From: a virus
Reading direction: 5' to 3' (one strand)
DNA: 30,531 nucleotides
IMG/VR virus record: IMGVR_UViG_3300013286_000794
Coordinates: 1-30,531 of that record
The translations under genes were made by a program, and so were the position numbers. The stretch's first letter is position 1. The number at the start of each line of letters is the position of its first letter. Below are positions 6,753-29,385 of the stretch, in pieces. Under the pieces are notes generated by a model. It searched no databases, was not told the origin of the DNA, and saw only the letters and a program-made list of their open reading frames with translations.

Positions 6753-6983
6753 TTAACTGAGTTTAATTAAACTGTCAAGGCTTTGATTGTTCGATTTTTG
6801 TATTTCGGCTGTCTGGCGTGCCGCACGAGTCCTGGCTTCTAATCTTAAATCGTCTAACACGCCGGCCATTTGCCATTGTACATTTGGATTTCTAGTCATG
6901 AAGTACTTTTTAGTAAGATCATTAATCCTGGCATATAGCTCGGAATCTTTCAGATCAGACAAATCAGTAACTAGTGGATGCAT
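6753..6983 (-). CDS. Small hypothetical helical protein, 76 aa
   Basis: This is an all-helical, charged protein (LSDLKDSELYARINDLTKKYF, then a segment rich in Arg/Ala, RLEARTRAARQTAE). It has no Cys and no TM. Its start overlaps the stop of the 443-aa fibre-like gene by one base (6983), so it is translated with the tail genes and may be a small tail or assembly factor. I do not recognise the family. Confidence 0.75.
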   Translation of the reverse strand: MHPLVTDLSDLKDSELYARINDLTKKYFMTRNPNVQWQMAGVLDDLRLEARTRAARQTAEIQKSNNQSLDSLIKLS

Positions 6984-8314
6984 TATTTGTATTCGCCTAC
7001 ATAACGCATGTAAACAGTTGTACCACCATCGTAGCTTGATGCTTCGATAAGTTTTGGATTTCCAGTAGTGCCAGAAGTAATTGCGGCCGATGCAACTGTA
7101 CTTGTACCACCACCACCGGTAAATGTAACAGCTGGAGTAGCTGTATAGCCGTTACCACCGTATGTAACAGTAATCAAATTGACACCAAAACTTAATACTA
7201 AACGTGCGCCATACCCAACACCAATGATTGGACTAGTATCGTAAGATCCAACAATTGGAGAACTAAATGTTCCGCCACTAGTAACAGTTAATGCACCGAT
7301 GGGCCCAGTTGAACTTGCATAGGTAATAACGTTTGCTGTAGTTGTAGCTGTACAATTTGCTGGCGTAGTATGGTCCAACGTTAGTACTAAATTAACATAG
7401 TAGCCATTAGCACCACCTGCGCTTCCTTGAACACCGGCTGAACTGATTTCAACCCCAGCTGGAATGCCCGATACAGCTGAAAGAGCTACGCCTGCACCTA
7501 AATTTAAAATATTTGAAATATTAGTTATTGTTGCATTACCGTTAGTAGTATTGCCAGTGAATGTGAGATTCAAACTTGATACACTTAATACCACATTAGT
7601 ATTGGCGTTGATAGTAATAGTGTCATTTACAGCATAACTATTTCCAGGATATCCACCAATTACAGTTGCACTAACAACTTTATAATTTGCAGTTGCAGTT
7701 GCAGTTGTTCCAGTAGCTTGTTGACTACCACCACTAAATCCTACTGCTACTGCGCTAGTATAACCTGAACCGGGATTGCTTACAGTAACACTGGATACTT
7801 TTTCCCCGCCAACAACAATTCCAGGTGTTACTGAATTAGGTAATGTTGGAAATGCTGTATCGTATTTTAATGTAGTTCCAGCCGCTGTCGCAAAAGCTGG
7901 TTGGCGAACACCACTGCCATCGCTGAATACAAACACCCGAACAGTTCCGTATGAACCGCTGGCCGGCCAGTTTCTAAATGTCAGCGTAACATTGTTTGAT
8001 AGATATACTGACTGAACAGCACCTAATTGTAAATTAATGTCCTGATTGGTGCTAACAGTACCAAGCGATGTAAACGTTCCGTAGAATTGATTAAAAATTG
8101 CGTTGGTAAGCGTATTACCCCCGAAGTTATTAGGAGCATTTACAAACGCGGCATTCTGCTGTAGTGCTGTAATTTCAGTACTAGCTTGGCCCAGTCCTGA
8201 TTTTATGGATCCAAAATTATCTCGGAATCCTTGGCTATTGTTATCCTGCCCTGCAACAGGGTATGTGGCGTCAATTGAGCCGAAATTAATTAAACTTGAT
8301 GTTGGGTTTGTCAT
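6983..8314 (-). CDS. Tail-fibre-like structural protein, 443 aa
   Basis: The N-terminus (INFGSIDATYPVAGQDNNSQGFRDNF) is a divergent copy of the 'I.IG..NDGTGD.LR.AF.KIN.NF' module that opens three other structural genes upstream. A coil/strand stalk (about 40-130, STEITALQQNAAF then TNQDINLQLGAVQSVYLSN) follows. A long Gly/Thr/Ser-rich beta region fills the rest, with paired 'VSNPGSGYTSAV.VGFSGG' and 'VTYGGNGYTATPAVTFTGGG' repeats. A segment (FTGNTTNGNATITNIS, near nt 7450-7560) recurs in the 4821-aa protein. Composition and context indicate a virion fibre or baseplate-decorating protein. An AGGA SD and an upstream GATAAATA octamer support the start at 8314. The ATG overlaps the stop of the peroxidase-fusion gene (ATGA). 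Confidence 0.82.
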   Translation of the reverse strand: MTNPTSSLINFGSIDATYPVAGQDNNSQGFRDNFGSIKSGLGQASTEITALQQNAAFVNAPNNFGGNTLTNAIFNQFYGTFTSLGTVSTNQDINLQLGAVQSVYLSNNVTLTFRNWPASGSYGTVRVFVFSDGSGVRQPAFATAAGTTLKYDTAFPTLPNSVTPGIVVGGEKVSSVTVSNPGSGYTSAVAVGFSGGSQQATGTTATATANYKVVSATVIGGYPGNSYAVNDTITINANTNVVLSVSSLNLTFTGNTTNGNATITNISNILNLGAGVALSAVSGIPAGVEISSAGVQGSAGGANGYYVNLVLTLDHTTPANCTATTTANVITYASSTGPIGALTVTSGGTFSSPIVGSYDTSPIIGVGYGARLVLSFGVNLITVTYGGNGYTATPAVTFTGGGGTSTVASAAITSGTTGNPKLIEASSYDGGTTVYMRYVGEYK

Positions 8315-11300
8315 ACGGTTATCCTATCGTTTTTGAACACTAGATATTTATCGTTTGAATATCCGTCCACAGAATCTATTATGTAGCGGTCCACTGTATA
8401 ATCCAGTGTTCTAAAGTCAAAACCGCTGTGTTTTATGTTTAAAATTATGCTATCCGCAGTACCGGGTTTACAGTAACATAGCGGAACAGCTAATTTGAAT
8501 CCTAGTTGTTGTTTTTCTCCCGGTTGAATAGTTCGCATCCAAACCGGCAAATAGTTACGTTCAGCAAGGCCTATACCTTCAATATTACGTTGCCAGTTGG
8601 TGATACTGCTGGGATAGAATATATTCGTACCAGTATTGCTTACTTGAAACGCATTGCTATCTACAGTAACATTATCAATAGGGCGATCTAACCAAGATTC
8701 TGCAAGATTCATAGTTGCAAGATTGGTAGCAAGTTCGTCAGGAGTATTTCCTACCGCGGCTACTTGTATGGCATTACTGATGTCTGCGGTAGTTTTTACA
8801 CTTCGCGAGGTATTATACTTGATGCTATGCGGCAAGGAATTACCATTAGCCTCCAACGGGTCTATCATTTCAATATAAATTACTTCATAGGCAGTGGTAT
8901 TGTTTATCTTAGCCACAGCTTTTTTTACAGATCCAAAATGGAATCTTTTATTTTTATGGTTTAGACCCATTGCTCCTATGTATACCGCCGCTTGTTTAGT
9001 TTCGATGCCGGCATACACCAACATACCTAAATCTGTTCTTGTTCCAAAGTTTGGATCAGCTGGTCTATATATACTATTAATTGAAAATATAGTAGGATCG
9101 TTAATAAACGTTGTCCATGCACTACGTTGTGTGGGTTTTAAATATGGCTGAGTTCTAATATTAGAGTATAATATTTGATTAGGGGTACTTACTTCTAATT
9201 GAAACTGTTGTTTACTCACAGCAAAGCCATACTGGTCAGTCGCTTGAACGGTAAATTTATAAATTCTATCAAAGGAAGTGCGGCCGCTGTCGATATTAAA
9301 ACCTGTATCTTGATCAAATAATATTAATCCTCTTGGCCCAACAATATCATATTGATGGTTGGTATCTATAGTTGTAAACTTCCTATCTAAATACCAATTA
9401 CCGTTTTCAAAAGTAGTTACTCGATGAATACTTTGTACACCGAATTGATTAACTTTTCCTGTAATTTCTCCGCTTACATCTAAGCTCAACCCTGGCGGCA
9501 ATCCAATTTCTGAAGGCTGTTTTGATAGACTGTAAATTAGTATGACATTCGGATCTTGAGCGGTAGCCTGTACACTTAAATTACTATTATAATTTGCTGG
9601 AATAGATCCTAAATTAAAATTAGTAATCCACGAAATAGTATTATTAATTTCTCCAATAACTGTTACTGTAAAAACTTTTTTAGTAATTGCTGGTTGTATA
9701 TCTGCACCAACTCTAGTTCCAAGTATAGCAAACGTATATGTTTTACTAATATTTGTTTGGAAGGGAATATAGCCTGCCAGGTACACAACGGATCCTACGG
9801 GAGAAAATGCCAAACCAGGCGGTAACGCTTGCTTGACCCAGTAAGTGATATTATTAACTATTGCATTAAATGTACCGGATGATTTATATGCAGTAGTACA
9901 TATATAAATTGATCCAAGATATGTAACAGCGATATCTACGGTATATTGAGTAAGGGCAGTCCATGCCGGAGCAGAATTTAAAATACTAAAAGTAGGACTA
10001 ACTGTTGTACTACTTGTAAATGTATTAATTTCAAGAGTGATATAATTATTAGCTCTGACAATGCCTAAATTGCTATCGGTAGAAAATAACGGCGCTTCGA
10101 GCGGAGTAACGTCAGCTGTGAATATTGTGGTATCGTCGGAGATAGCCGCGTCGTCTGCTGTTAGTAATTCGGGACTTACAACAAAAATACCAAACATTCG
10201 TTTTATAGTTTTATTTCCAGCTACCGCAGTGACAATAAATTCATATCGTTGATTAATACTTTTCGGAGGTAATGTTGGTGTACTAAAATCAAATGTTTGT
10301 TGATCGTATATATAGGAATCGTAACCGTTAGTTGGCCTACTGGCGAAATCATAAAATCCACTGTCATACAAATCTTGGTCAAATGCTCCTACTCCGGTAA
10401 CTGCTTCTGTTATAGCTAACACTGGGTTTACAAATCCAGTTAATGTGCCGCCGGCGGTTAACCTCACGCCTGGCGGCAGATCACCATCGCCGCTGGCAAT
10501 ATAATATGTAACTGGTAAATTGTCTAAATCTTTAGCAACTAACTGGTAATTGATAAAACTGTTGTTTAAAATATAACGCTGATTATGTACACCTATCGGC
10601 AATAGTCCGCCGTCTGTTTGCCATACAGGCGGGCCGCCTGTAGCTACTTTAATATTGAATGTACGGTCAGCAATGTCTTTTCCATCACTTGCTCTTATAC
10701 AAAATGTATAGGTCGTATCTCGTACTACACCGTACGGGATTCCTTTTATGGTATTGCCGACAACGGCCAATCCTGGAGGAAGTGCGCCCGAGATTAGTGA
10801 AAAGGTTATTGGATTTATTGGTGCAGGAGGTTGTGCAGGAGGTGTAGGATATGTTCTAGCAGTTATAGATGCAACTGTTCCGTTGTAAAGATCGGCACGT
10901 TCTACAGCTACAAACGCATCAGGTTGCATAGCTTGTGTAGATGTATTGCGCAGTATCATGTCGGACAATGTGACACCATGCAACCATAACAAATCCTCAG
11001 GACTCCATAGTTTATTTTCCCACCACAAAGCATCACCGTCTCGTACTTTAGTTAATTGGTCGATCATTATGGCTCGGAAGGTAGGTCCGACCATAGCACC
11101 GTTAATTGGATCTTCTGCCAGTCCACCTATCCATAAATCTATATCATTTATATTAGTATAAGCCGCTTTTAACCCAGCAACTACTGTGGCATCTATAGTA
11201 ATTTGTTCAAAACTAGTATAAGCAAATAATCCTAATATTTGTCTCATTTGATTTAAACTAGGTAAACCTAAATCACGACCACGTTGAATATTTGTTGCGG

Positions 11301-12597
11301 CAAGATCCATTGCGGCAGGCGGGTCGTTAAGTAGATTACGTAAATCTTCAATAATATGTGCATCTAGTTTGTTAGATATATCGCTGGCCAATTTTCTTAA
11401 GAATCCATCAGCACCGCCATTACGTTCGTATTGTGCAGGAGTTAAGAAAAATGCTTGTCCTAGTGTTACCGATTCTGTGATGTTGCCGTGTTCATCCACC
11501 CGATCCTGTGCGCCCGACACAATGCTATGGCCAAATCGCATGGCGGCTGCGGCGAACTCTATTCTTATAGTAGCATCTATGTTGTCTTTAAATCCTGTAT
11601 ATGCAGGAATCGCTCCGGCACCGACGACTTTTGGCACCCACTCTTTATATGTAATAATTTGTTCTTCGGCAATAACTAATGCACGGGCACGTTGATATAA
11701 TTGTTCGCCTGTCCAAGTCGGATACTGCGTAGTTAATCTAGCAACATGCCAATTATGTTCTCTAATGAGTAATGTTTGTACACTGGTCAGATCTGGGTTT
11801 TCTGTTCCTCTAGGATCTCCAAATATAAACATGCCGGTGCTAGGATTGATAGGTCCATACAAACCGCCGCTAGACGTTAGTAGTTTTCCTGTAGTAGCAT
11901 TGATGCCGCCTTCGCGTAAGTTAACTGGATTTTGAAATACAGTAGTACCTTGGGGAATACCGGGAGGATAAGTAAGTCCGTAAATCACGGTGCCATCGAT
12001 CCAGCCAGTAGTATCGTTGATAAAATTTGCTACTATTCCATTACGTCCAGTACCCGGCGCAAGCAATAATCTGTTAACTGGAATATGACTGCCTGGTGTT
12101 AAGAAAGCATCATTCGGTGGAACTATGACGTCGATATTTTGTGTACCAGCACGAGCAAAATCCATTTCGTGTGTTATAAACTGTCCCCAAGCGTACATAA
12201 ATCCGCTGTAGCCATTGGGGTCGGGTTGATTTCCTTGACTAACAGGATCATATACTACTAGATTACTTACAGTTCGAGGGTTAGGCAAATCAGTACGCAT
12301 TTTCCATATACCATCGACATAACTGTTTATCGGATATCTAGTAAAAGGTGTTCCTGCGGCATTTCTTAATGGGGCTGTAGGATGATGACCAGTACCGTCG
12401 TAGGGTACTGAATTAGTTGCGGTAGGCGCTGTAGTAGGAAGAATTACAGGTAATGGTAACAATACACTAATTCGTTCTACAATAGGGCCAACATCAAATA
12501 TTGTACGTCGCTGATCAAAATAGGTCGTACCGCCATCAAATCCAAACTGATTAGTTGACCAAGTATATCCTGAAGGTTTTGTCCAGATATTAAGCAT
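8311..12597 (-). CDS. Virion-type protein: animal-type heme peroxidase domain fused to Ig-like (He_PIG/cadherin-like) repeats, 1428 aa
   Basis: Residues about 65-560 align motif by motif with the animal heme peroxidase (myeloperoxidase) superfamily. WGQFITHEMDF carries Gln139 and distal His143. WIDGTVIYG (199-207) is the calcium-loop region with Asp201. DPRGTENPDLTSVQTLLIREHN gives catalytic Arg263 and the heme-ester-type Glu266. MRFGH gives Arg354 and proximal His357. NIQRGRDLGLPSLN gives Asn436, the proximal-His partner. IDLWIGGLAEDP and VRDGDALWWEN complete the domain. The myeloperoxidase Asp94 and Met243 heme links are Thr142 and Asn267, so at most one covalent ester link is expected. About 570-1060 holds four LPPG(L/V) Ig-like repeats. 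The C-terminal about 370 residues (up to LVFKNDRITV) look like a beta-rich phage structural domain. No signal peptide is seen. The gene lies between fibre genes, so it is probably a virion component. Confidence 0.85.
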   Translation of the reverse strand: MLNIWTKPSGYTWSTNQFGFDGGTTYFDQRRTIFDVGPIVERISVLLPLPVILPTTAPTATNSVPYDGTGHHPTAPLRNAAGTPFTRYPINSYVDGIWKMRTDLPNPRTVSNLVVYDPVSQGNQPDPNGYSGFMYAWGQFITHEMDFARAGTQNIDVIVPPNDAFLTPGSHIPVNRLLLAPGTGRNGIVANFINDTTGWIDGTVIYGLTYPPGIPQGTTVFQNPVNLREGGINATTGKLLTSSGGLYGPINPSTGMFIFGDPRGTENPDLTSVQTLLIREHNWHVARLTTQYPTWTGEQLYQRARALVIAEEQIITYKEWVPKVVGAGAIPAYTGFKDNIDATIRIEFAAAAMRFGHSIVSGAQDRVDEHGNITESVTLGQAFFLTPAQYERNGGADGFLRKLASDISNKLDAHIIEDLRNLLNDPPAAMDLAATNIQRGRDLGLPSLNQMRQILGLFAYTSFEQITIDATVVAGLKAAYTNINDIDLWIGGLAEDPINGAMVGPTFRAIMIDQLTKVRDGDALWWENKLWSPEDLLWLHGVTLSDMILRNTSTQAMQPDAFVAVERADLYNGTVASITARTYPTPPAQPPAPINPITFSLISGALPPGLAVVGNTIKGIPYGVVRDTTYTFCIRASDGKDIADRTFNIKVATGGPPVWQTDGGLLPIGVHNQRYILNNSFINYQLVAKDLDNLPVTYYIASGDGDLPPGVRLTAGGTLTGFVNPVLAITEAVTGVGAFDQDLYDSGFYDFASRPTNGYDSYIYDQQTFDFSTPTLPPKSINQRYEFIVTAVAGNKTIKRMFGIFVVSPELLTADDAAISDDTTIFTADVTPLEAPLFSTDSNLGIVRANNYITLEINTFTSSTTVSPTFSILNSAPAWTALTQYTVDIAVTYLGSIYICTTAYKSSGTFNAIVNNITYWVKQALPPGLAFSPVGSVVYLAGYIPFQTNISKTYTFAILGTRVGADIQPAITKKVFTVTVIGEINNTISWITNFNLGSIPANYNSNLSVQATAQDPNVILIYSLSKQPSEIGLPPGLSLDVSGEITGKVNQFGVQSIHRVTTFENGNWYLDRKFTTIDTNHQYDIVGPRGLILFDQDTGFNIDSGRTSFDRIYKFTVQATDQYGFAVSKQQFQLEVSTPNQILYSNIRTQPYLKPTQRSAWTTFINDPTIFSINSIYRPADPNFGTRTDLGMLVYAGIETKQAAVYIGAMGLNHKNKRFHFGSVKKAVAKINNTTAYEVIYIEMIDPLEANGNSLPHSIKYNTSRSVKTTADISNAIQVAAVGNTPDELATNLATMNLAESWLDRPIDNVTVDSNAFQVSNTGTNIFYPSSITNWQRNIEGIGLAERNYLPVWMRTIQPGEKQQLGFKLAVPLCYCKPGTADSIILNIKHSGFDFRTLDYTVDRYIIDSVDGYSNDKYLVFKNDRITV
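8345..8352 (-). promoter_or_regulatory. Late-promoter-like octamer GATAAATA
   Basis: The minus strand reads GATAAATATC 30 nt before the ATG of the 443-aa gene, inside the 3' end of the peroxidase-fusion gene. An AGGA SD follows between this octamer and the start. It would give the fibre gene its own late transcript. Confidence 0.55.
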
Positions 12598-12619: not shown

Positions 12620-13411
12620 TTATACTGACGATAAACGGCCAAAGTCTAATCCATTTGAAATTGGTGAATTGATGTAACTCATATCTAAATTGATAGTAGA
12701 ATAATTACCAACAATACGCCCCATGTCAATCGTAAACGAGGTATTCTGCAATAACAATCCAACTAAGGCATTTAATACATCAACACGTATGCCATATACC
12801 GTAGATTGCACATCGCCGGTGTTATTATCCCCACGGATGATATGTCCGTTCAATAATAAATCTCCACCTAATCGGGGAGCAGTATCATTAACCAGACCTA
12901 GTCCGCTTTTGAAATCAATAGTACCGTCGGTGTTAGGAACGATATTAATACTATTGTCACTACTTTTAATACTGTTAAATTCTAATATATTTGTATTTTT
13001 ATCAGCAAAAATTCCAACACTGTTACTAATAATCACTGGAGTAGTTAGTGCAAATACTCCAGGGTTATATGGATAGGCTAGTGTAATAGTTGCGCCGTTG
13101 CTTGCAGTACAATAAAAATGTCCGTTGTATGCAGGTACTGAACAACCAGTTACATAGTAATATTGATTAATAGCTGGCACAACAGTTAATACAGCAAATG
13201 CAAATGTTACAAGATATGTTTGGCCATTCGCCACTGGCGAATTAGCATTGGTAACTGTAATGGTTTTTGTTGCTAAATTTGTTGCTTCTGCAACAGGGAT
13301 ATCTGTGCCTAAAAGCGCAAAATTATAATTAATTTTTGTAAATGCACTACGTAGGTCATCGCCAGATCCGTCGTTTGCGTACTGCCCAATATTGATTGTT
13401 TTAATTGCCAT
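12620..13411 (-). CDS. Fibre-family structural protein with shared N-terminal module, 263 aa
   Basis: Residues 6-31 (INIGQYANDGSGDDLRSAF then TKINYNFALL) are the N-terminal module shared with the 85-aa and 4821-aa proteins. Residues about 60-125 hold one copy of the 'YxVTG...AYNGxFxxxASxxxxITLxYPxxPG' beta module that occurs six times in the giant protein. The C-terminal part (GTIDFKSGLGLVNDTAPRLGGDLLLNGHIIRG) resembles collar/adhesin linkers of tail fibres, including the 'DTAPRLGGDLLLNGH' phrase common in phage tail proteins. It is likely a small fibre or adaptor on the same attachment site as its paralogues. An octamer CATAAATA precedes the start by 19 nt. Confidence 0.83.
   Translation of the reverse strand: MAIKTINIGQYANDGSGDDLRSAFTKINYNFALLGTDIPVAEATNLATKTITVTNANSPVANGQTYLVTFAFAVLTVVPAINQYYYVTGCSVPAYNGHFYCTASNGATITLAYPYNPGVFALTTPVIISNSVGIFADKNTNILEFNSIKSSDNSINIVPNTDGTIDFKSGLGLVNDTAPRLGGDLLLNGHIIRGDNNTGDVQSTVYGIRVDVLNALVGLLLQNTSFTIDMGRIVGNYSTINLDMSYINSPISNGLDFGRLSSV
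13040..13220 (-). repeat. Repeat family B copy in the 263-aa gene
   Basis: This beta module (YYYVTGCSVPAYNGHFYCTA, then ITLAYPYNPG) matches six copies in the giant gene near nt 16450-16620, 20590-20790, 20850-21020, 22910-23110, 24690-24915 and 25730-25925. The consensus there is IPTQ, YTVAGNSNTAYNG, ASTxxSITLxY, DPGxYGxxTT. Sharing across two genes points to duplication or recombination between fibre genes. Confidence 0.75.
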
Positions 13412-13439: not shown

Positions 13440-13697
13440 TTAACTCAATGCTACTGACATTGCAATAGTGAATCCCTTGCTGGCTCCGGCCGTCTGTTGT
13501 ACAGTTCCATCTGGGAAAGTTAAATTACCATCTGCTCTAAGGGTAAGTGTATATGCACCGTTGGTCAGCTGTGTCTCACTTGCGCCCCCAGCATATAGTT
13601 CAGTGAAGTTGGCATTTATTTTAGTAAACGCCGTGCGCAACGGATCTCCGTTCTTGGCATTGGCCGCGGTACCTATATTGATTACTTGTTTTGTCAT
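13440..13697 (-). CDS. Minimal fibre-family protein, 85 aa (module plus one beta repeat)
   Basis: This short complete gene is made of two pieces. One is the shared N-terminal module (INIGTAANAKNGDPLRTAFTKINANFTELY, split here as residues 6-35). The other is one 'NGAYTLTLRADGNLTFPDGTVQQT' type beta unit (about 46-70), followed by a short hydrophobic end (GFTIAMSVALS). It overlaps the stop of the 4821-aa gene by one base, so translation is coupled. It looks like a stripped-down paralogue of the giant's N-terminus, perhaps a capping or competing subunit at the same attachment site. That role is inference. Confidence 0.8.
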   Translation of the reverse strand: MTKQVINIGTAANAKNGDPLRTAFTKINANFTELYAGGASETQLTNGAYTLTLRADGNLTFPDGTVQQTAGASKGFTIAMSVALS

Positions 13698-16600
13698 TAC
13701 ATTCTCCCTACGGCAACTTCAACAGTGCCAAACCCTGGATCTGTCTTATCTGCCAATGCTTTACCAATAATTGTACCAAATTGCGGATTTACTGCTTTGC
13801 ATCCGTAACCTGCTACACTTGCTGTAGTAATTAAGTCACCTTTTTTGATTGTTCCCAATACTCGAACTGGAGTACGACCTGCCAGCGCAATACAAGCTCT
13901 AGTACCAGTTAATCCGTCGTTCATAGTGTATGCTGGATTAGTTGTAACTACACCTGCCACACGACTATCACCAAATTCAGTTGTAGTTGTAGTTTCAGCT
14001 TCGCCACCAAATACCAATACAGTACCTGGAATATATTCTGCATCGGAAGTGTACCATTCGGCTAAGTCAGCATAGGTAGCTTGCAATTTACTAGCACCGG
14101 TTAGGGTATAAGTACCTTGCATTGTACAACCGCCGCCGTCTGTACCATCTGTAATAATGGATTTTACTTTTAATGTGTTAGAATTAGTGTTTAAATCAAA
14201 ACTACTATTAGCACTGAATCTCCATGAACCACTTAATGTCCCACTTGTTGTATTGTTTGCTGAACTGGTTCGTAAATCAGTTATTAAAACAATACTAGAT
14301 TGAACAGCAAAATCTTGTAGTCCGTAGTGTACTACGTTTGATCTCGTGTTTCCACTATCATAAGTAGCAGTCATAAACTTCTGACTTGAGCCGCTATTTG
14401 GAGTATAGAAACTTAATAGTGTACTTGAACTATCTATCATGTTTCCAACACTTGGCAAGCTGGCAAATTTAATACCTTTAATGTCAATATTACCAGAACC
14501 GTCAGTTTTAACTAGGCTATTATTAGCACCTGTAGTTGTAATTGCTGTCACATCGTATACTGCTGTTGGGCTAGCTTGTGTACGAATAATTGCACCGGTT
14601 GTACTAGTACTTGTTGGAATATCCTGATTACGTATACCGTCACCGTTAGCAACTAACGCTTGTGTAGTAACTACGGCAATGGCGCCAGGAGCACTGGCAG
14701 TAATATTTGCCAATGCACTGTTAGCAGGAATCCATTGCAATTTGCTTGGAGGAATACCATCAACACCTGTGGTAGTAGCAGAACCAGTAGCACTACCATC
14801 TTTAAGGGTTACCCAGCCGTTGTTAACAGTGAATATGTAAGAGCTATAACTGCTTAAACCATTGTTGGCTTGGATGCTGTCTAGTTCTGTCACACTACCT
14901 GTACCAGTACCTGCACCAGTCGCCTGGAATATTAAACCGCCTGTATTGCTTGCGGCTCCAATTAATGTAAAATCTGTGCTGCCAACAGTTGATATTACAT
15001 AACGTTTACCTGCAACAATGCTACCTGGGCTTAACAGATTATAAGTAGGCGCAGTATATCCGTTAGTAGTAGCCAACGTCATTGCTAGTTTACTTTGCTG
15101 TATAGCCGCATATTTGTAAACCTTGTTATTAATGACAACACCATCTCGTGTAAATGTTAATATACCGTTTGGTGTGGTATCTGGATCAGCACTTATTGTT
15201 AAAATAACAGTATTGACAATGTTAACAACTTTTTGTGAACTTGTAAATCCGATACCGGTAATAGTCATACCTGGAATAATTCCAGTTGTACTACTAACTG
15301 TTAGTTGTTTAGTACCACTATTATAACCAACATAGGTTGGAGTAATAATAGCACCTTGTAAAGTACTGGTTAATGTAGTACCGTCGTAAGTAATCAATAC
15401 GTCGCTAAACGCTGAACCTGAAACACCTTGAGAGAAAACAGCATTATTCCATTTGCTTGTAGTACTGTTATAAACTAATAAACTTTGGTTAACAGGATTA
15501 TTAACAGCAACATCACCAAGTTTTGATAAAGCATTAACTCCGCTGACTGTATTATCTACATAACCCTTTGTTGAAGCATCGGTGGCAAGTAACGGACTTC
15601 CTAAACTACCAATAGTGTAGCCGCCCATTGACATATTGCCTTTCATTGGCAATGTACCTTTAAGCTCCATGTAACCGTTACCAATCAATGCTGTTGCTGG
15701 AGTTGTAGAACCTGATTGTTGTACACCCAATCGATTATCGATATATCCACGAACTGCACTTTGTGTTGGAACAGTATCCGACGCATCGTTAGTCATTGTA
15801 GAGTCTGTTGAAAATTCAGCAATAACTACACCGCGTTTAAATCCAAGACCGTTCAAGTTACTCAACGCAATACTAGCTGAGAATGTAACTGTACCAGTAC
15901 CTTGGTCAACTGTAAAGTAACGTCCTACACGGAAAATACCATTTTGATCAGTGGTTACATAGAATACACGACCGACTGTTTCTTCTTTAATTTCTTTGGT
16001 TTGATCCGCTTTGATAAACGGATTACCGTAAATTTGATAAGGATAGTTGGTTGTATTATAACCACCAGTGCCGATATCTAATAAATCGTGTGCCGAACAA
16101 CGACAAGTACTAATACGTGTGGTAATTTGTGCAAAACTATTTGCTTGGTATCCAGCTTGTAACGCACTTGAAACAGCACTGTTCATCGGTTTACTAATAC
16201 CGCTAACATTGTTAGTAAACGATGTTGTACCAGTTCCATATGGAACAGTAAATGTAATATTACCTGTTGGAGTTCCAGCTGGGCTTGCACTGATAGTTAG
16301 TGTTAAACCATCTGTGCCCACACTAGACACAGTTTGTCCAGCAAAGAAACCTCCAGCTCCTCCACCGCGTATAACCATGCCTGCTACTATGCCAGTAGTA
16401 CTAGAAACTTTTAATGTAGTACCACTTGATCCTGATGGAACGTATGTTACTACAACTGTACTCTCTGGATCTGTTTGATATGCAAGAGTAATAGTGCTGG
16501 TTGTGCTTGCAGTTGCTTGAACCCAACCGTTGTATTTGTTATTGCTATTACCTGTTACATTATAATATACGTCAACTGTAGGAGCAGTTGCTTGTGTAGC

Positions 16601-19600
16601 AAATGTGAATGTTGTATAGTACGGGCCAGATGCATTACCCAATGCTGTGAATCCTAATACTCCAAACGGTGTACTATTTGGTGGAGCACTTAATGTAATT
16701 ACAGTAGTTGGTGCACCGCTAGCACTTGGAACAGCAGATATAACGGTTTGCCCGCTAGTAAATCCATTGCCAAATACAGTCATAGGTGTACCGGCACTAA
16801 CAATAGATGTAATGTACTGAGTCCTATCATTAGTGTACACAACCATAGTTGTGCTTAATGTAGTAGATTGTATAAATGAGCTAGCGGCAGTTGCACTTGC
16901 AGGAGCACTCATTACTAACGTGTTTGCAGTATAAGTAAAAGTCCACCCTGACTGGACACCAGTTGCCGCATTGTTTAATGTAATAGTTTGACTACCGGCA
17001 TCAAATGCGGCCACTGTGGTTGATCCTGGAATTGGACTGCTATTGCCGCCGCCGATTGGTGTACCTACTACAATATAAGTAAACACTGTTGCAGGAACAC
17101 CTGTTAATACTTTAGAAGGTGTAAATGTATTTCCAAATGTAAATGTTCTATCGCTAAGACCAGCTGTGGTAGTTACTGGTGTTGATCCGCCCTGAGTAGT
17201 TACCAAAGACAATGTGGTTGTTGTTGGCGCTGGAGTTGATGCAACATAGTAAGTACCTGAGGCGATGTATGCATTGGTTCCGCCTGATACTACAATCTGT
17301 GTACCTGGTGGAAGAGGAACGGTAGTTGATGAAAATCCACTAAGTGCTCCGCTTGCGGCAACTGTTATAGTACCAAGCAGAGTTGTGTTACCATTTGTAT
17401 TAGTATTAGCAGTAAATGTTCCGCCAGTATTCGTACTGAGGATATAATTGTCAGTTCTGCCTGTAATAGAACCGGTGGCAGTTGACACTGGAATAGCAGT
17501 GGTATTATAACCGTTATACAAATAGCTTGAATTAGAACCGTATGCATTTAATATAATCTGCGTAGAACTCAATACTTGTTTAATATAATAAGTGCTACTA
17601 TTAGTTAATCCGCCAAAACTTGCTCCACTGGTAGGATCAAAAGTTAAAGTATTACCAGCAACAATGGTTCCTGCTGTCGGGTTACTAATTGTTACAATAT
17701 TATTTGTACCAGTGATAGTTGTTGAAGAAACAGCAAGGTTAGTACTTGTTTGCCAAGTAGATCCGTTACCACTACCTGATATGTTAGCAGTAATATATGT
17801 AGGACCACTACTTGATACAAAGCCGTATTGCTTAAATGTTAATGAACCACTTGGAGTACTATCGGCAAAACCGCCGTTAGTTCCGCCAGTGATTGTAAAG
17901 CTAGTACTATTGATGATACTTGCAACAGTCTGGCCTGAAGTGAAACCAGTTCCGGTAATAGTCATACCAACTGCAATAGTTCCACCTGATGCACCGGATA
18001 TAGTTACAGTTGTACTTGACACGCCGCCTGATACGTATGTGGCTGTTACGGCTGTTATTGCACCAACTGTTGCATTGGTATAAGCGAAAGTTGTAATAGT
18101 TGGACTTGGACTTGCCAATACAGTAGCAGTTTGATTATATCCTGTTGGAGTTAATCCGCTAATTGTAACAGTACTGCCAGCAACATACGGGATACCGGCA
18201 ACACTGGTCCATGTACCGCTAGCACTAGTTACTCCTTGAATACTGCTGCCGTAACCTGTACTTACAGTAATTTGATTTGTTCCTGTATTAACACTTAAAA
18301 TATAATAAGTTGCACCTGAAGTAATTCCGCCCAATGATGCTCCTGCGGTTACAACACTTGATCCACTAGTAGTTGTTACTACAAAATTACTAGTGCCACC
18401 ATATGCACTTACTACGCTGAAGCTAGTAGCATTGATAACTTCACTTATGTAATAAGTTGTACCTGTGGCTAAGTTACCTAATGCAGTACCAAATGTTACC
18501 GGTTCTCCTACTACCAATCCTGCTGTACTTCCAACAGTGATTGAATTTGTTGTTGCAGTAATAGTTATAGGCCCAATTGGCACTGAATGATTTTGACTGA
18601 CAATCCAAGTTGACCCAGAACCTGAAACAATATATGTTCCGGCCAGTATACCAACACCAGTTAACTGCTGTCCAATCGCTGCCGCACCTGCTCCAACAGT
18701 TAATTGGAAACCGCTAATTGAACTGGTAGTAAGACTAACAGAAGAATTAACAGTTCCAGTAGCGGTTGTAGATTGTTGTACAGTAGTAAACACTATCTGT
18801 TGATTAACTGCTATGCCGGTTGTACTACTCAAGGTTAAGTATGAACCTGCTTGTGTTGTACCTAGTAAAGTTGGTGTTGGGGTGACCAATGTCATTGTAG
18901 CAGTGGTACCATTACCGCTAGTACCACTAATTGCATTGGTTTGTGCTACTACAACGTTTGGCCCAGTTAATTGCATACCGACTGCAACAGTTCCACTTGA
19001 AACAGTTCCAACGGTTAATACACCTGCTGAGCTAATTACACTACTAGTAGTTACCGCAATATTTTGCGTGGTAGTTGTTGCACTTACTACAACTTGTCCC
19101 GGAATACCTGCACCAGTAATAGTGGCACCTTGACCAATATTAGTTAAACTACTAATATTAATAATGTTTGTGCTACCATTTGTAGTGTTGCCGTAAAAGC
19201 TAACTGTTGGGAAGTAGGTAGCTACCACTTGTCCTCTGCTCTGTTGAGCTATAAATGGAACAGTAGTTGTTGAACCACCACCGCCGGCAATAGTATATTT
19301 GATACTGCCTAGTGTGATATAAGGAGTAGTTGAATAACTAAAAATTAATGTACCACTAGGAGTGCTATTTGGTGATGCGCTTATGATCAATGTGGTTGAA
19401 TTGCTAACACTGGAAATAGTTTGTCCTGATGTAAAACCAGTTCCTGTAATAATCATACCGGCAAACATACCGCTGGTTCCGCCGTATGTAATTGATAATC
19501 CTACAGTAGTTGCAGTCGCTGCCGCACTCAATGTTAGTGAATTGGTACTTAAATTAATACTAACAATAGTTGTACCAGCTTGTATTCCACTAACTGCACT

Positions 19601-22600
19601 TAGTATTTCTCCAACTACCAGTCCAGTGAAACTAGAAACATTCGTGACACTTGTTTGGTTATTTGCAATATTGGCTGTAAATGTGCCGCCAACAACAAGA
19701 GTGGTACCTGTACTACCTGTTGGATTGTATCCTGTGTAATAAGTAGTTGTTACCGGAGGAGTATAGCTAGCAATCGTATGTACTCTACCGCCCCACGCAA
19801 ATGCGTATGTGCCTTTATTAACTTGGTCGATATAACTTTGTGGGCCAAATGTGGTAACAGCAATACGAGTATCGCCGGGAGTAGCACCCATTGTTTTTGA
19901 TCCGCCATCAATTGGATCAGTTTTAGTAATTGAACCGGTGTCTGCTTGGAAAATATAATAAGCAAACGATTGATCTGTACTCAACACAGCCACGTGATTA
20001 GGTAATATTTCGTTGGTTGCTTCAGTTAAATTATATGCCAATACACGATAGATGCTTGACAAATTGTCATTGAACTGTGCGGCAGTACTTGGTCGTGTTG
20101 GATTAACGTTGTTGACATTGTAGAATTTAAAGTTTTGTAATGTACGGATTTGTATCATTTGTCCGTCGTACAACGGAGCTGCCAAACCTGTACTCGAGTA
20201 ACCGCTTGAACCTGAACTTGTACTTAGGTTTAGTGCTAGAACGTTTTGTCCGCCTAAATTAACGGAAGAATAATTACCAGCAGTTAAAACAATATTAAAA
20301 TAGGCATACTGGCCAGTACTACTACTTGAAGTGGCTACAATGTTAGAATATGTGGCGCTTCCACCGTATGCTCCATTACCTGAATATGTAAATGTACTAA
20401 CAGCACTATTAATCAATGTTTGTATATAGATTGTAATATCATTACCACTGTTTGTGGTATAGGTATTTCCAGCACCAGTTGCAGTTGCCGCATTGTTTAG
20501 AATAATTTGGTTGTTAGTGTATGTTGCTAATGCAGTAGATCCAAAAGGTAATCCAAATCCACGGATAGTAGATCCCATGAAGGTTACGGTAGTTGTACCG
20601 CTACCATATGCTCCGGGGTCTGTTACATATCTCAATGTAACGCTAGTCACAGTGCTTGCCGTAGAAACATACAACCCGTTATAACTTGTGTTACTATTTC
20701 CAGCAACAGTATAGTATCCGCCTACTAATGGAGGAACAGATTGTGTTGGTATTGTTAATGTAACTAATACACTTGGAGCACTGCCAGTTTTACTACTACC
20801 GCTTACTGTAAATCCAGGTTGCATAATAACTGCACTAGTAGCTTGACTAAATGTGCCAGGGTCGGTCGCATAGCGTATTGTGATAGTGTTTAACGAACTA
20901 GCTGATACTGTAGCACTTCCGTTGTAGGCTGTTGTGGTTGATCCATATACTGTATATCCGGCAGATACTGCGGGTTGTGCAGATTGAGTTGGAATATTAA
21001 ACACAACATCATATATGGTTCCACTTACTAATGTTTTAGTTACATAACCTGTTGTACTATAAGGAATAATTAATAATGCATTACTTGGAGTAACAGCAGA
21101 TAATGTGCTAACGCTTGTTATTACATTACTACCGATAACTGCATTAGCAGTTAATGATCCATCTTTTCCGCCTAATAAACTACCCGAAATAGTAATAGTA
21201 TCGCCAATGTACAATGTTCCGCTAGGTGTACTATCAGGAGCCGCATCTAATATTAAACTTATTCCGTCAGCTAAAACAGTTACGACCTGTTGCGCAGAAA
21301 TAAATCCTGTGCCTTTTACAGTCATTCCTGCTACAATACCTGTAGTACTTGAAACAACAAGTGTTGTACCGCTAGATCCACTAGCAGTATATGTAACTGC
21401 ATTAACAGCATAACCTGTACCTACACTTCCTGTTGGTACATAAATTGTAGTATGACTTATACTATTAACTTGATAACGTCCAATACCTTTACCAGCTAAT
21501 GAATGGTCAATTTCTAATTCACTAATATTAGTTGGATAGTAATCGTAATTTATAATATACAAGGTAGTCGCACCTGTATTCATACTATTATAAAATGCGT
21601 TATTTGTTTGACTCTGTGGTAATGTTGGTGGGTTATAAATCTTAGCAGTTTGTGCCAAGTTATTGGCTAAATTAACACTATCGGGTAATTCAGTTACGTC
21701 GTAACCCGATGCACGTAAAGCATATTGACCGTGTGCGCTTGAGCTACCAATAGAACGAATCTGTCCGCCGTTCAGCGCCCAGAAGCTTGTCCAACAATAG
21801 TATGTAAAGGTCGAAACTTGTTCTGTAATGCCGCCGTTAGTTGCCAAAATAGCATAGCCCAAATCATTAACTTGAGCATAGTCGTTAGCCAACATAGACT
21901 TATTACCACCCATCTCGATATTAATTGCTTGCCCAGTACCGCCGGTCCAGGGTGTTGATGTTGCCATTGAAAATATTACAGTACCACCGATAACATTTGA
22001 GTTAACATCGAACAGTTGTGAATAGCTGGTAATAGCATTAATTTGATAACGATTACCAGTTACATAAAATGCACAAGGTGCTTGAGGAGCACGTACATCT
22101 AAACCGCTACCAGCATTGCCAGTAACAGTAACAGTAAGACCGTCTGGAGTTGAACCAGTAATTGTTCCGAACAATCGTCCAGTAAATCCGTCGACAAATT
22201 GTCCGCCAGCAAATGTTTGTTTATTAATACTGCGTGAAAAACTTGTACATACTTGTCCGTAAGGTGATTTAGATTTAATCTGACCTTCTGGGTCAAGCAC
22301 CATCATAAAGCCGCCGTGCCCTTGACCGGTTAAGTTACTAATACGGACTGCATCATTACACAAGAACATATCAATTTCTTTATTGTTCAATGCTGTATTA
22401 GTTGAACTTTCTAATTGTGTTGGATCTTTTAAGTAATGACGTCCGTAGTTGTTTGTTGTATATAAATGCCAAGCACCTGCATTAATACTTGCTAGTACCA
22501 CACTACTAACTGTTGCAGTTGCACCGCTAGATGATCCAACAACAGTATTACTTGTGACAAATGTACCAGTAGTTGGGGTATAAGAAATACTTCCACTTAA

Positions 22601-25600
22601 CACGCTAGTAATAATACCCACAGCACCAGTGCTGGCCTGACTAATAGTTTCATTTACTTGGAAACTACCGATAACGTTAGTGATTGTAAGTGTTCCTGGA
22701 ATAGCGAACGGATAAATTACAGTACAATTCATGAAGTTACCAGACACGCTATTAACAACAGCCTGTCCTGGTTTACCGTATGAATCTACTGCGTCTGATT
22801 GGAACACATATCCTAACCAACTAACATTGGCCTGCGTATTTCCGCCAAGGGTAATTGTGATACTACCGCTTGAACCGCTTAATGCCGCACTAACTAAATT
22901 GTTAATGGTTGTAATTGTACTAGTACCATAAGTGCCAGGATCGCTTGGATATATTAATGTAATACTTCCACTTGAACTAGCATACGCAGAAAACGTACCA
23001 TTATAACTTAAATTGGTATTTCCACTAATAGTATATTGTAAAGCTGTGTTAGCCACACCATAAGCTGTTGGGATAGCAAACGTAACTCTGTATGTACTAC
23101 CAGAACCTGCGGTCTTAGTAGTATAACTTGATATATTGACAGTTGGGGAATAATCAGTTGCACCTATTCCGTTATTAATTGGTCCAATTTGTAAACCGTC
23201 GATAATACTATCGCGATAGAAGAATAAACTACGCCACGGGCTTTGACTAACACGATCTAATGGACGTACAATAGTTCTACGGAATTCGTCACCCCGCACT
23301 GATACGTTAGCTGCCACACGAATTGGGTAATCTTCGTAATAGATACCAGCTTCAACCATGATGGTAATTTGTTGATTACCCACACTTTCTGCATATTCCA
23401 ATTGCTCAGCAAATGTTATAGTACCGCTTCCAGTAGTAACATTGGCTATTAAATTTGCACTTAGTGTAATAGAAGCGCCGTTGACTCCAGTTACAGTCAC
23501 TCCGGCTGGAATACCAGACACACCGGATACTCCCATACCTATCTGAATAGTAGTTAATCCATTTCCTATGGTTGTTCCAGAAGCAGTAGTTACTGTTAAT
23601 GTATTAGTTCCACTAGTACCAGTAGCAGTAGTGGTAACGATTTGCCAGAAGCCAGGACTTGTTTGTCTTAAAGTTACATTGTCGTTACTGTTGGTTCCGC
23701 CTTGTGTGTAAGCAATAATAGTACCAGTCACACCGCTAGTGATACCTCGAATGATCTTACCAGCAAGAATTTTAATGTCGCCAGTCTGTCCTTGATCAAC
23801 ATAACCGTTACCGCCGTTGCCAAACGATAGGGTATATATGCCAGTTCCAAAACTTGGAGTAGGAGCCGCACTTACACCACTCTTAACAATGTTTAACATT
23901 GTAGCATAATTGTTTGTAAATGTTGAAACAGCAGTTATTGTAAATGTTAAGGTACCGCTTGGAGTACTATCAGAGCTGGTACTTAATGTAATGGTATTGC
24001 CGTTAACCGCAGTAACAATTTGTCCACTGGTGAAACCGGAGCCTGTTACGACCATACCGGTTTGTATTGTCCCGCTTACTGAGTTTACAGTTAAAGTTTT
24101 ACTTGAAACAGAAACATAAGATGCTGTGGCCACATAACCAGTATTAGGATTTTTATTACTATTATAAGTAGTTTGGGTTACCAATGTTTGATAACGATTA
24201 CCGCTTTGCTGATTTAATACTTGTAGTGATAAGTCTCGAGCAAATGCTATAGCATCTAATGTTTGTTTATTTTGCGTACCAATAGCAACTGTTTTAGCAC
24301 TTGAATTTTTATAGTAACTCTTACCAGCATTAATGCTTTGATATGTGCCACCGGTTAACAAGTCAATTGCCATTGCATCCACAATGTAACCGACGTCTCT
24401 GTAACAAGTTGCTTGATTATATGCAAACCCACCAGTGTAGGTTGCATTTAGATAAGCAGTTACCGCTTGAGAAATAGGAGTAGCATTATTTAGAATAACA
24501 CCCCTAACAGTGGTATATCCACTACTCGAGAATACACTATTAGTCAAATCAGGTGATGTTACAATCTGAACAGCATTAGTAGCGATAACACTGGTCATCA
24601 TGTTCCATAACGCAGTAATTAAACCACTCACTGTGGTATTTGTATTATCTGCATCTTTTGTTGGATAGTTATAAGTATCGATAAACTGAGCAATGATATA
24701 ATTAGTAGGAGTAGCATTACCCCATGTACCTGGATCGGCAGCATAACTTATGGTAATACTAGTAGTTGTACTGGCTACAACACTATTAGTAGCATTATAA
24801 CTTGTGTTTGATTGCCCTTGTAATGTTACGAGTGTTCCAATTGGTATTGGAATCACACGGGCAGTTGCTAAGTTTAAAGTTACAAGATACGGCCCAGTTC
24901 CGGTTTTACTACTGTAAGTTACATAGTTTGTTACACGGTCTTGATATACGGCACCAGGGCCGTTGTTGGTTGCAATATTTCCAAGTAAAGTCTGTAAGTA
25001 AGCAAACGCTTGCGATTTAATACTTGATTCCGATGTGTCAATAGTGCTTGTAAGATTATTGTTGCTGTTAAGGTACCAGTATTGACTAGCCGCTGTATAA
25101 CAACCGCTGTTGCCACCATACAACATATCGTAAGCAGTAGCTTCCATTAGTAGTTGTATATCTTTGGCAAATTGTTGTTGACCGTCAGCGGCCACGTAAG
25201 TGAAAGAACTTGATAGATTTTTAACCCAACCAATAATTTCTGCTTGTGCAAATGCATAATTTTTTGTTATCAACGTTGCAGAGTTTGCAATGTTGGCCGC
25301 TAAACTACTCGGCGCTGTGAATGTAAAGTTAGGTCTGTTTCCTAAACCTCCATTTAATACATCAGTTACAGTTTTAAATTTATTAGTCAGCCCTGTAATA
25401 GCGTTGCTGTTATTAATATACGGATATTGTATATTTAGATAGCTAATGGTGTTGTTAATAAATCCAGCAAATGTTGTACCATTACCGATACCACTCGAGC
25501 CGTAAACAAGTTGTCTTGCAGTAGGGCCGTTTGAAGTTGTTGGTGATACTAAATTAGGAGGTGTATTTGCAACTATTAAACCTTGAACTGTTCCTGTGAT

Positions 25601-28167: not shown

Positions 28168-28491
28168 TTAAACTCCGAAACTTGATCCGCAACCGCACGT
28201 TGTTTGTGCGTTGGGATTCTTTATTGTAAAACTGCTACCCATTAAATCTTCTTTGTAATCTATCTCAGCACCTGTAAGATATTGCATACTCATGCTATCT
28301 ACAAGTACTTTGAATTCGTCTAAGGGGATTTCAAAATCGTCTTCGTTCGCGATTTCGTCAAAAGTAAAGCCATAGCTGAATCCGCTACAACCTCCTCCTT
28401 GTACAAAAGTACGCAATGCTAAGTTAGGATTACCCTCTTCATAGAGTAAATCTTTAATTTTTGTCTTTGCTGATTCAGAAATTGTGATCAC
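28168..28491 (-). CDS. A-type iron-sulfur cluster carrier (ErpA/IscA-like)
   Basis: This 107-residue protein has the three invariant cysteines of A-type carriers: Cys35 in [11 protein letters not shown], and Cys99 and Cys101 in TTCGCGSSF near the C-terminus. Length and order match bacterial ErpA/IscA, which hold a 2Fe-2S or 4Fe-4S cluster and hand it to apo-enzymes. The start is GTG at 28491, supported by a GAGGG element about 8 nt upstream and a GATAAATA late-like octamer at 28517-28510. It lies 5 nt before the giant fibre gene and is probably co-transcribed with it, which is an odd pairing. It could help keep host Fe-S proteins working under oxidative stress; that function is inference. Confidence 0.92.
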
Positions 28492-28550: not shown

Positions 28551-28838
28551 ATGTTCTTAACCACTGAATTTAGAGAAAACCACTATGTGCGGGTCAGCAA
28601 GAAAGGTAAGACGCATACTTATAGTCGTAAAAAGACTGTACTAGTCATGAGATGTGATTGCTGTCAGGAAGTGTTTCAACGAGATAAAGGACAGATGGAT
28701 CCGCATCGATTGACCAATAGTGTTTATCATGTATGCGGTAATTGTGATGCTAAAAAGTTTGCCCAGGAAAAGGGTGTTGAAGCACGTAAGGTTTGGGATA
28801 TGCCAGTTAGCAGTCTTAAATCAATCAGCCAGCTGTAG
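28551..28838 (+). CDS. Small zinc-binding protein (two CxxC knuckles), 95 aa
   Basis: Two CxxC pairs (C35-x2-C38 in RCDCCQ, and C62-x2-C65 in CGNCD, counted from the ATG at 28551) are spaced 23 residues apart, as in a four-Cys zinc ribbon. The N-terminal third is basic (VRVSKKGKTHTYSRKKT), fitting nucleic-acid contact. A TTG three bases earlier is an alternative start, and no SD is visible, so the start is uncertain. The gene is on the plus strand and converges on the superoxide dismutase gene with a 14-nt overlap of coding ends and no visible terminator. I do not know its function; a DNA- or RNA-binding regulator is the simplest reading. Confidence 0.78.
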   Translation: MFLTTEFRENHYVRVSKKGKTHTYSRKKTVLVMRCDCCQEVFQRDKGQMDPHRLTNSVYHVCGNCDAKKFAQEKGVEARKVWDMPVSSLKSISQL

Positions 28839-29385
28839 GAACACGCCCGTTAATTATGACCCAGTCCATAATTTTCCACTGATTTTCAAGATACTTTTTC
28901 TTGTCTGCTTGATAATCTAATGCCCAAGCATGTTCCCACCAATCCACAAGTATAACTATATCGTGTTTGATCTGATGGTTCGTAATGGTTTTTATTTCGC
29001 CATTGCGGGCTAGATAGACCCAGCCACTACCTTGCACAGACATTGCTTCCTTTTGAAATTTATCTTTAAAATTATCAAAAGTTTTGAAATGTTTTATAAT
29101 GAATTCGTCTATTACACCGGTAGGTTGATTTGATCCAGTAGGTTTTTTAAATTGAGTGAACCAAATGTTGTGTAAAAATGCTCCTGCCTCATTGAAGTCG
29201 GCATTGCCTTCTCCGTCGTTGAATCTAGTAACGTACCCTTTGTATAACTTGCCGTAATGATAGTTTATAGTTTCTTCGCTCATGCTGGGCTCTAGATCAT
29301 CCTTGGCATAGGGCAATCTCGTTTGTGTTAACGTTTTAGGTGTCTTACCCTCGTTTAGGGTGATATGCTTAATAAAGTTGTACAT
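28825..29385 (-). CDS. Fe/Mn superoxide dismutase
   Basis: This 186-residue enzyme has the iron/manganese superoxide dismutase fold signatures. Metal ligands are visible as His43 (NYHYGK), His72 (AFLHNIWF), Asp148 and His152 (VDWWEHAW). GSGWVYLAR (119-127) is the classic GSGW.WL segment and Tyr51 matches the gateway tyrosine. The usual second-shell His pair after HYGK is replaced by Leu47-Tyr48. Position 68, which is Gln in FeSOD, is Gly, as in MnSOD, so the metal preference is open. It converts superoxide to O2 and H2O2. The ATG at 29385 comes only 5 nt after a GATAAATA octamer and has no SD, so the transcript may be leaderless. There is no signal peptide, so it acts in the cytoplasm. Confidence 0.92.
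   Translation of the reverse strand: MYNFIKHITLNEGKTPKTLTQTRLPYAKDDLEPSMSEETINYHYGKLYKGYVTRFNDGEGNADFNEAGAFLHNIWFTQFKKPTGSNQPTGVIDEFIIKHFKTFDNFKDKFQKEAMSVQGSGWVYLARNGEIKTITNHQIKHDIVILVDWWEHAWALDYQADKKKYLENQWKIMDWVIINGRVPTAG

Follow-up and report, generated by a model that had tools for sequence, protein, structure and literature searches.

The window, which is the whole 30,531-nucleotide stretch of the viral record IMGVR_UViG_3300013286_000794 (IMG/VR), carries on its minus strand a gene encoding a protein of 1,428 amino acids, in which a heme peroxidase is inserted into a tail scaffold of the Ig-string type. The gene, its parts and its neighbours are as follows.

8311–12597, minus strand: whole gene, 1,428 amino acids, Ig-string tail scaffold with inserted heme peroxidase (open reading frame; same layout in homologues)
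12448–12597, minus strand: residues 1–50, conserved N-terminal stretch MLNIWTKPSGYTW...VERISVLLPLP (comparison with relatives without the peroxidase; He_PIG match in L127)
10912–12402, minus strand: heme peroxidase domain, the inserted module, residues 66–562 (PF03098)
12169–12189, minus strand: distal motif W137-G-Q139-F-I-T142-H143, with Thr142 at the usual position of the ester-forming Asp
11989–12009, minus strand: candidate Ca2+-site loop T197-G-W199-I-D201-G-T203, by alignment to the Thr/Trp/Asp/Ser ligands of CyanoPOX
11800–11811, minus strand: catalytic Arg263 and ester-type Glu266 (sequence alignment, letter check)
11527–11538, minus strand: Arg354 and proximal heme ligand His357 (sequence alignment, letter check)
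11281–11292, minus strand: Asn436, partner of the proximal His, and Arg439 (sequence alignment)
8314–10830, minus strand: residues 590–1428, rest of the first Ig-like domain, further Ig-like domains and conserved C-terminal domain (He_PIG; model; profile match to Atu_ph07 gp329)
12620–13411, minus strand: neighbouring tail gene, 263 amino acids, gp9/gp10-like start (phrog_677, baseplate wedge tail fiber connector)
13440–13697, minus strand: neighbouring tail gene, 85 amino acids, T4 gp9/10 N-terminal domain (PF07880, phrog_677)
6983–8314, minus strand: downstream gene, 443 amino acids, overlapping the end of the peroxidase gene (open reading frame; position kept in contig L167)
3008–6742, no strand assigned: DnaE fragment, GroES-like, clamp loader and PhoH genes, which mark the jumbo-phage group

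Residues 66–562 of the product match PF03098 at full length in a Pfam profile search (375 bits, E 6e-112; curated cut-off 25 bits), the match extending over profile positions 4–530 of 530. The earlier note, made from the sequence alone, had judged the domain to be full length and had named a catalytic set of Q139, H143, R263, E266, R354, H357 and N436. The profile search that it proposed agrees on the length, each of the residues was confirmed letter by letter, and the closing segment VRDGDALWWEN is present in the translation. The distal Gln-His, the catalytic Arg and the proximal His with its Asn and Arg are invariant in the phage copies that reach each position. The animal-type heme peroxidase family includes the lactoperoxidase of milk; the solved relatives closest to the window domain by sequence are the cyanobacterial CyanoPOX (8s6c, 254 bits), DdPoxA (6erc, 205 bits) and myeloperoxidase (169 bits). 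An AlphaFold model of the domain is of low to moderate confidence (mean pLDDT 51) because the alignment is shallow. Its best Foldseek matches nevertheless all belong to the peroxidase-cyclooxygenase superfamily (8s6c at E 3e-26, TM about 0.6), so the structure prediction suggested in the same note likewise points to a heme peroxidase fold.

In the alignment Glu266 is kept, while the Asp of the second heme ester is Thr142 in 22 of 22 phage copies, a replacement seen in none of nine bacterial relatives. With Thr142 in place of this Asp, the normal route to one of the two heme ester bonds typical of the family is closed. By alignment the phage enzyme is thus assigned to the single-ester type, like DdPoxA (peroxinectin A) of Dictyostelium, in which the Asp is also absent (Ile, for the Thr of the phages) and the Glu is likewise retained along with every other catalytic residue. 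Sequence and model together place the domain in the peroxidase-cyclooxygenase superfamily despite the predicted loss of one ester, DdPoxA being an accepted one-ester member. DdPoxA differs in being a secreted amoeba glycoprotein with disulfides, whereas the window's peroxidase domain contains no cysteine. The nearest sequences that we found are peroxidases of Bradyrhizobium (42–45% identity) together with CyanoPOX, which binds heme and is active when produced in E. coli. With these the phage domain has in common its full length, the distal Gln, His and Arg, the ester-type Glu, the proximal His, Asn and Arg, and the pattern of the Ca2+ loop; the phage copies differ in the Thr, in their insertion into a tail protein and in forming a separate clade.

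Replacement of a conserved active-site Asp by Thr142 in all phage copies might suggest a degenerate, inactive passenger domain. DdPoxA is an active single-ester enzyme, so that the Asp is dispensable there (PMC5787809), and the evolution of the phage module also argues against decay. In diverged pairs dN/dS for the peroxidase module is 0.06–0.18, 223 of 497 positions are invariant across 18 complete phage copies, and no copy contains a stop codon. The module is shown to be under purifying selection, and we regard an inactive passenger as very improbable. The intact catalytic set and the strength of this selection support the earlier view that the domain is probably active.

The peroxidase does not stand at the front of the tail protein, as had been supposed, but within a loop of its first Ig-like domain. 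In relatives that lack the peroxidase, the stretch corresponding to residues 1–50 leads straight into the first Ig-like domain; in one homologue (L127) a He_PIG match at 8–93 bridges the insertion point, and the block common to the window gene and L003 comprises gene offsets 195–1719. Pairs with and without the peroxidase are clean and define one common insertion point. The scaffold is usually free of peroxidase, which is present in 17 of 161 distinct scaffold homologues. All additions of more than 300 residues among these 161 proteins are peroxidases, with the exception of the subtilase of phage Atu_ph07. Insertions of 80–190 residues in some homologues were considered as other enzymes in the same loop, and contain no enzyme by Pfam. 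The four LPPG repeats fused to the domain were correctly noted before, with motifs at residues 606, 707, 925 and 1033; Pfam identifies He_PIG Ig domains in the window protein, and a model of the scaffold gives Foldseek matches to cadherin and Ig strings.

More than 20 further contigs in IMG/VR show the same architecture, and therefore it is not a chimera of assembly. The carriers are a group of uncultured giant phages. Their peroxidases form a single clade on a long stem, apart from the cellular relatives, and the scaffold tree requires at least 12 changes in peroxidase presence. Synonymous divergence of the insert and of the rest of the same gene may be up to 10-fold or more apart (for example 0.20 for the insert vs 2.1 for the scaffold). 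The peroxidase is thus shown to have been gained, lost and exchanged between phages as a unit.

The setting of the gene is that of a tail operon, as previously proposed: tail genes with PF07880 and phrog_677 matches adjoin it, and the gene order of the window's tail cluster is the same in L167. The order DnaE–clamp loader–PhoH matches that of the PA5oct/Atu_ph07 group, the clamp loader is 54% identical to those of PA5oct-type phages, and GroES is also found in PA5oct. Core genes and their order, as tested on this contig fragment, indicate a jumbo myovirus akin to PA5oct and Atu_ph07 (Rak2-like) as the source.

The window also contains a gene for an Fe/Mn superoxide dismutase (Pfam), as do eight of the nine peroxidase contigs with 17 kb or more of sequence upstream. 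Peroxidases consume H2O2, and the enzyme could be an antioxidant that protects the particle or the late-infected cell, possibly with the phage dismutase. The pairing is not specific, because the dismutase is found in six relatives without peroxidase and is absent from one peroxidase contig (G041) despite 22 kb of upstream sequence; we therefore rejected a functional pair. Moreover, a dozen enzymes at 100 nM H2O2, with the DdPoxA rate constant (3.2e6 per M per s; PMC5787809), would turn over an estimated ~4 molecules/s, against a diffusive supply to a 75-nm particle of ~8e4/s. On this estimate the detoxification around the particle envisaged in the earlier note is unlikely, and a role in the cytosol would need no insertion into a tail protein. 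Overall, we consider an antioxidant function unlikely.

Atu_ph07 is an isolated jumbo phage with a cluster of virion proteins, CDS 284–329, defined by mass spectrometry, in which gp329 is the last (PMC6102473). The Ig-like and C-terminal scaffold of gp329 (AUZ95088 / YP_009611994, annotated as an extracellular serine proteinase) is homologous to that of the window gene. Both proteins carry an enzyme in the N-terminal part, and both belong to a tail-gene cluster beside a DnaE–clamp loader–PhoH block. They differ in that gp329 has a subtilase (Peptidase_S8) in place of the peroxidase, and a distinct N-terminus where the window protein has a loop insertion and an MLNIWT start. By analogy with this scaffold we infer that the window protein is a component of the virion. 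It might instead work within the infected cell or be freed at lysis, given that a profile search of the PA5oct genome found no scaffold homologue, and therefore the virion proteome of that phage cannot vouch for the window protein. Yet the neighbouring tail genes, the Ig-string architecture and the position of gp329 at the end of its virion cluster argue against this, and the protein sequence shows no start resembling a signal peptide; we hold a non-virion role to be improbable.

The reading that we favour, at about even odds, is that of an exchangeable peroxidase displayed on the tail by an Ig-string protein, which oxidises host-surface polymers during adsorption. The peroxidase would fold and take up heme b inside the infected cell, with the heme linked to the protein through at most one ester (Glu266). 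The protein would then become part of the tail, anchored by its conserved C-terminal domain and displaying its N-terminal end, an orientation suggested solely by which end is conserved. At the particle the enzyme would form compound I with H2O2 that is ambient or comes from the host; the source of H2O2 is a guess, and so is the substrate. Compound I might oxidise small donors such as phenolics, iodide and thiocyanate, not chloride, and the oxidised donors would attack polymers of the host envelope or extracellular matrix within nanometres during adsorption. The production of hypohalous oxidants proposed earlier was too broad, because the Asp is replaced by Thr142 and the closest characterised chemistry is that of DdPoxA. 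That enzyme oxidises I- and SCN-, does not oxidise Cl-, and hardly oxidises Br- (PMC5787809).

Position in a tail-protein loop and exchange between phages also resemble the properties of receptor-binding parts, and in peroxinectins a peroxidase is coupled with cell adhesion. The fold could thus serve mainly as an adhesin or as a heme-bearing ligand, for example of a heme uptake receptor, and catalysis would then be of lesser weight. However, the distal catalytic Gln, His and Arg, which go beyond what a heme ligand alone requires, are invariant in all copies, and the heme lies deep inside the peroxidase fold. A binding module of this kind is rather doubtful.

A displayed peroxidase would be an oxidative counterpart to the hydrolytic enzymes of other phage tails. 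Capsule depolymerases and similar tail enzymes are also exchangeable, carried on a tail protein and patchy across relatives; they are hydrolases or lyases, as are to our knowledge all phage tail enzymes so far, whereas the window enzyme is an H2O2-dependent heme oxidoreductase. The earlier impression that no characterised phage has this architecture is borne out by our searches: among 50,697 records of isolated phages there is no peroxidase match at E up to 1, full-text literature searches found no phage tail peroxidase (the top paper mentions KatG only), and a survey covering 224 jumbo phages says nothing of peroxidases. The wider proposal, that jumbo phages mount exchangeable enzymes on an Ig-string tail protein, among them a single-ester heme peroxidase acting on the host surface as a virion oxidoreductase in adsorption, we put at somewhat short of an even chance.

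The pairs with and without the insert, together with the Atu_ph07 relative, make the idea of a tail peroxidase testable, and the phage-wide change of Asp to Thr predicts one heme ester and the oxidation of iodide and thiocyanate, not chloride. If the idea is true, oxidative chemistry would be added to the hydrolase and lyase repertoire of phage particles, an enzyme family of innate immunity and bacteria would be extended to viruses, and a natural instance of heme-protein display by a virion would be at hand.

The protein encoded at 8311-12597 contains a complete animal-type heme peroxidase domain. In a Pfam profile search the match to PF03098 is full-length (375 bits, E 6e-112, profile positions 4-530 of 530), as the earlier note had supposed, and a chance match to the heme peroxidase family is excluded. 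Every active-site residue that the note named is found in the translation. The top-ranked solved structures by sequence are CyanoPOX of cyanobacteria (8s6c), Dictyostelium DdPoxA (6erc) and myeloperoxidase, and the best fold matches of the predicted structure, which is of modest confidence (pLDDT 51), all belong to the peroxidase superfamily.

8311-12597, minus strand: peroxidase gene, 1,428 aa (ORF)
10912-12402, minus strand: animal-type heme peroxidase domain, residues 66-562 (PF03098)

The remainder of the protein, the scaffold, is a string of Ig/cadherin-like domains with a conserved C-terminal domain. This is a large family, with at least 577 relatives in one scan. The peroxidase is carried by 17 of 161 distinct scaffold proteins with a complete start, and the place of insertion is identical in all 17. 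The peroxidase-free homologue L072 matches the window protein on either side of the insert, and over 11 kb the flanks of the gene are 68-80% identical; L075 and L159 provide a second with/without pair (77-84% identical). In another peroxidase-free homologue, L127, a single He_PIG (Ig-like) match at residues 8-93 spans the insertion point. Thus the peroxidase is not merely fused to the front of the protein, as had been proposed, but is inserted into the first Ig-like domain, in one of its loops. Four scaffold homologues (L086, L088, L294 and L298) have 180-190 residues before the same point, with no Pfam match there. Weak mid-protein matches to the carbohydrate-binding module CBM5/12, under the Pfam cut-off, occur in the peroxidase-free L040, L143 and L025. 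A further homologue, L284, is unreadable in a single frame, due to a frameshift or to an assembly or alignment effect.

In this superfamily two ester bonds normally hold the heme, one to an Asp beside the distal His, the other to a Glu. The Glu is retained as Glu266, invariant across the phage copies together with Gln139, His143 and Arg263; Arg354, His357, Asn436 and Arg439 are invariant in all copies extending that far. The position of the ester-forming Asp is Thr142 in 22/22 phage copies, whereas it is Asp in 9/9 bacterial relatives in the alignment. The peroxidase of L060, a Bradyrhizobium jicamae contig, has a stop within the matched stretch. DdPoxA is the sole characterised enzyme we found in which the Asp is likewise replaced, there by Ile. 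Its heme is held by a single ester bond and its redox potential is lower; it is very fast on iodide and thiocyanate, hardly oxidises bromide and does not oxidise chloride (PMC5787809). By this analogy hypochlorous acid is an unlikely product of the phage enzyme, and the hypohalous oxidants of the earlier note probably do not extend to it. CyanoPOX produced in E. coli is active and binds heme without ester links (PMC11776367), making it plausible that the phage peroxidase acquires heme in the bacterial cytoplasm.

The phage peroxidases form a single, fully supported clade, set apart by a long stem from the bacterial relatives found. On the scaffold tree, the pattern of peroxidase presence across the 90 rows implies no fewer than 12 changes, with partial support and sampling that favours near relatives. 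Synonymous divergence differs strongly between the two parts of the gene: dS is 0.20 for the peroxidase and 2.1 for the scaffold in L009/L010, and 0.12 and 1.85 in L161/L167, while L007/L014 show the opposite (0.83 and 0.13). L003 is 82% identical to the window in the peroxidase block, and 42% in the remaining protein. Neighbouring parts of one gene thus have separate histories, and the peroxidase moves between phages as a module. The domain is under purifying selection. A useless passenger would not be expected to show dN/dS of 0.06-0.18 in diverged pairs and 223/497 positions invariant across 18 complete copies; the window/L002 pair is near-identical, with too few changes for dN/dS to be judged.

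The window comes from a 30.5-kb virus record in IMG/VR. Its clamp loader is 54% identical to those of PA5oct-type jumbo phages, and DnaE, GroES, clamp loader and PhoH follow the PA5oct order; in the isolated jumbo phage Atu_ph07, DnaE, clamp loader and PhoH likewise lie in that order. Next to the peroxidase gene are tail genes whose start resembles T4 gp9/gp10, an order seen again in L167. One tail-type gene with such a start (13697-28162, minus strand; 4,821 aa) fills about half of the contig and has no match in Pfam. Beyond it lie:

28168-28491, minus strand: Fe-S cluster assembly protein adjoining the SOD gene (Fe-S_biosyn, phrog_17776; Pfam and phrog)
28825-29385, minus strand: Fe/Mn superoxide dismutase (SOD), ~16 kb upstream of the peroxidase gene (Pfam)
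29899-30498, minus strand: UvdE-like UV-endonuclease gene, at the edge of the contig

SOD genes are frequent in peroxidase-bearing and in peroxidase-free contigs alike, and a dedicated SOD-peroxidase pair is therefore not supported.

Atu_ph07 gp329 is a homologue of the scaffold, with profile matches to the Ig-like and C-terminal parts, and ranks third among the fold matches; it bears a subtilase (Peptidase_S8). The Atu_ph07 virion clusters identified by mass spectrometry include CDS 284-329 (PMC6102473). The cluster-end CDS 329 is the gp329 gene, by gene count from the annotated DnaJ gp293, checked against the tail fibre gp327. Together with the tail-gene neighbours, this makes a virion location of the window protein probable.

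The enzyme superfamily is known; its carrier here is new, the change in the active site is specific to the phage copies, and in Atu_ph07 the scaffold type bears a protease. No INPHARED phage record matches the peroxidase domain at E up to 1, and searches of open-access papers turned up no heme peroxidase on a phage tail, in keeping with the earlier note, which knew of no characterised phage of this architecture.

What might the peroxidase do? Detoxification of H2O2, suggested previously, would have the enzyme clear peroxide around the particle, in bulk or locally. This is unlikely: in a simple diffusion estimate using the DdPoxA rate constant and assuming about a dozen copies, removal is too slow by some four orders of magnitude. 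Local oxidation at adsorption is the most likely role. The peroxidase would be loaded with heme and the protein incorporated into the tail. Since the Atu_ph07 protein still shares the C-terminal domain and differs at its N-terminal end, the C-terminal part would be the anchor and the N-terminal end the displayed, exchangeable part. At adsorption the enzyme would then oxidise nearby material of the host surface or matrix, its putative substrates.
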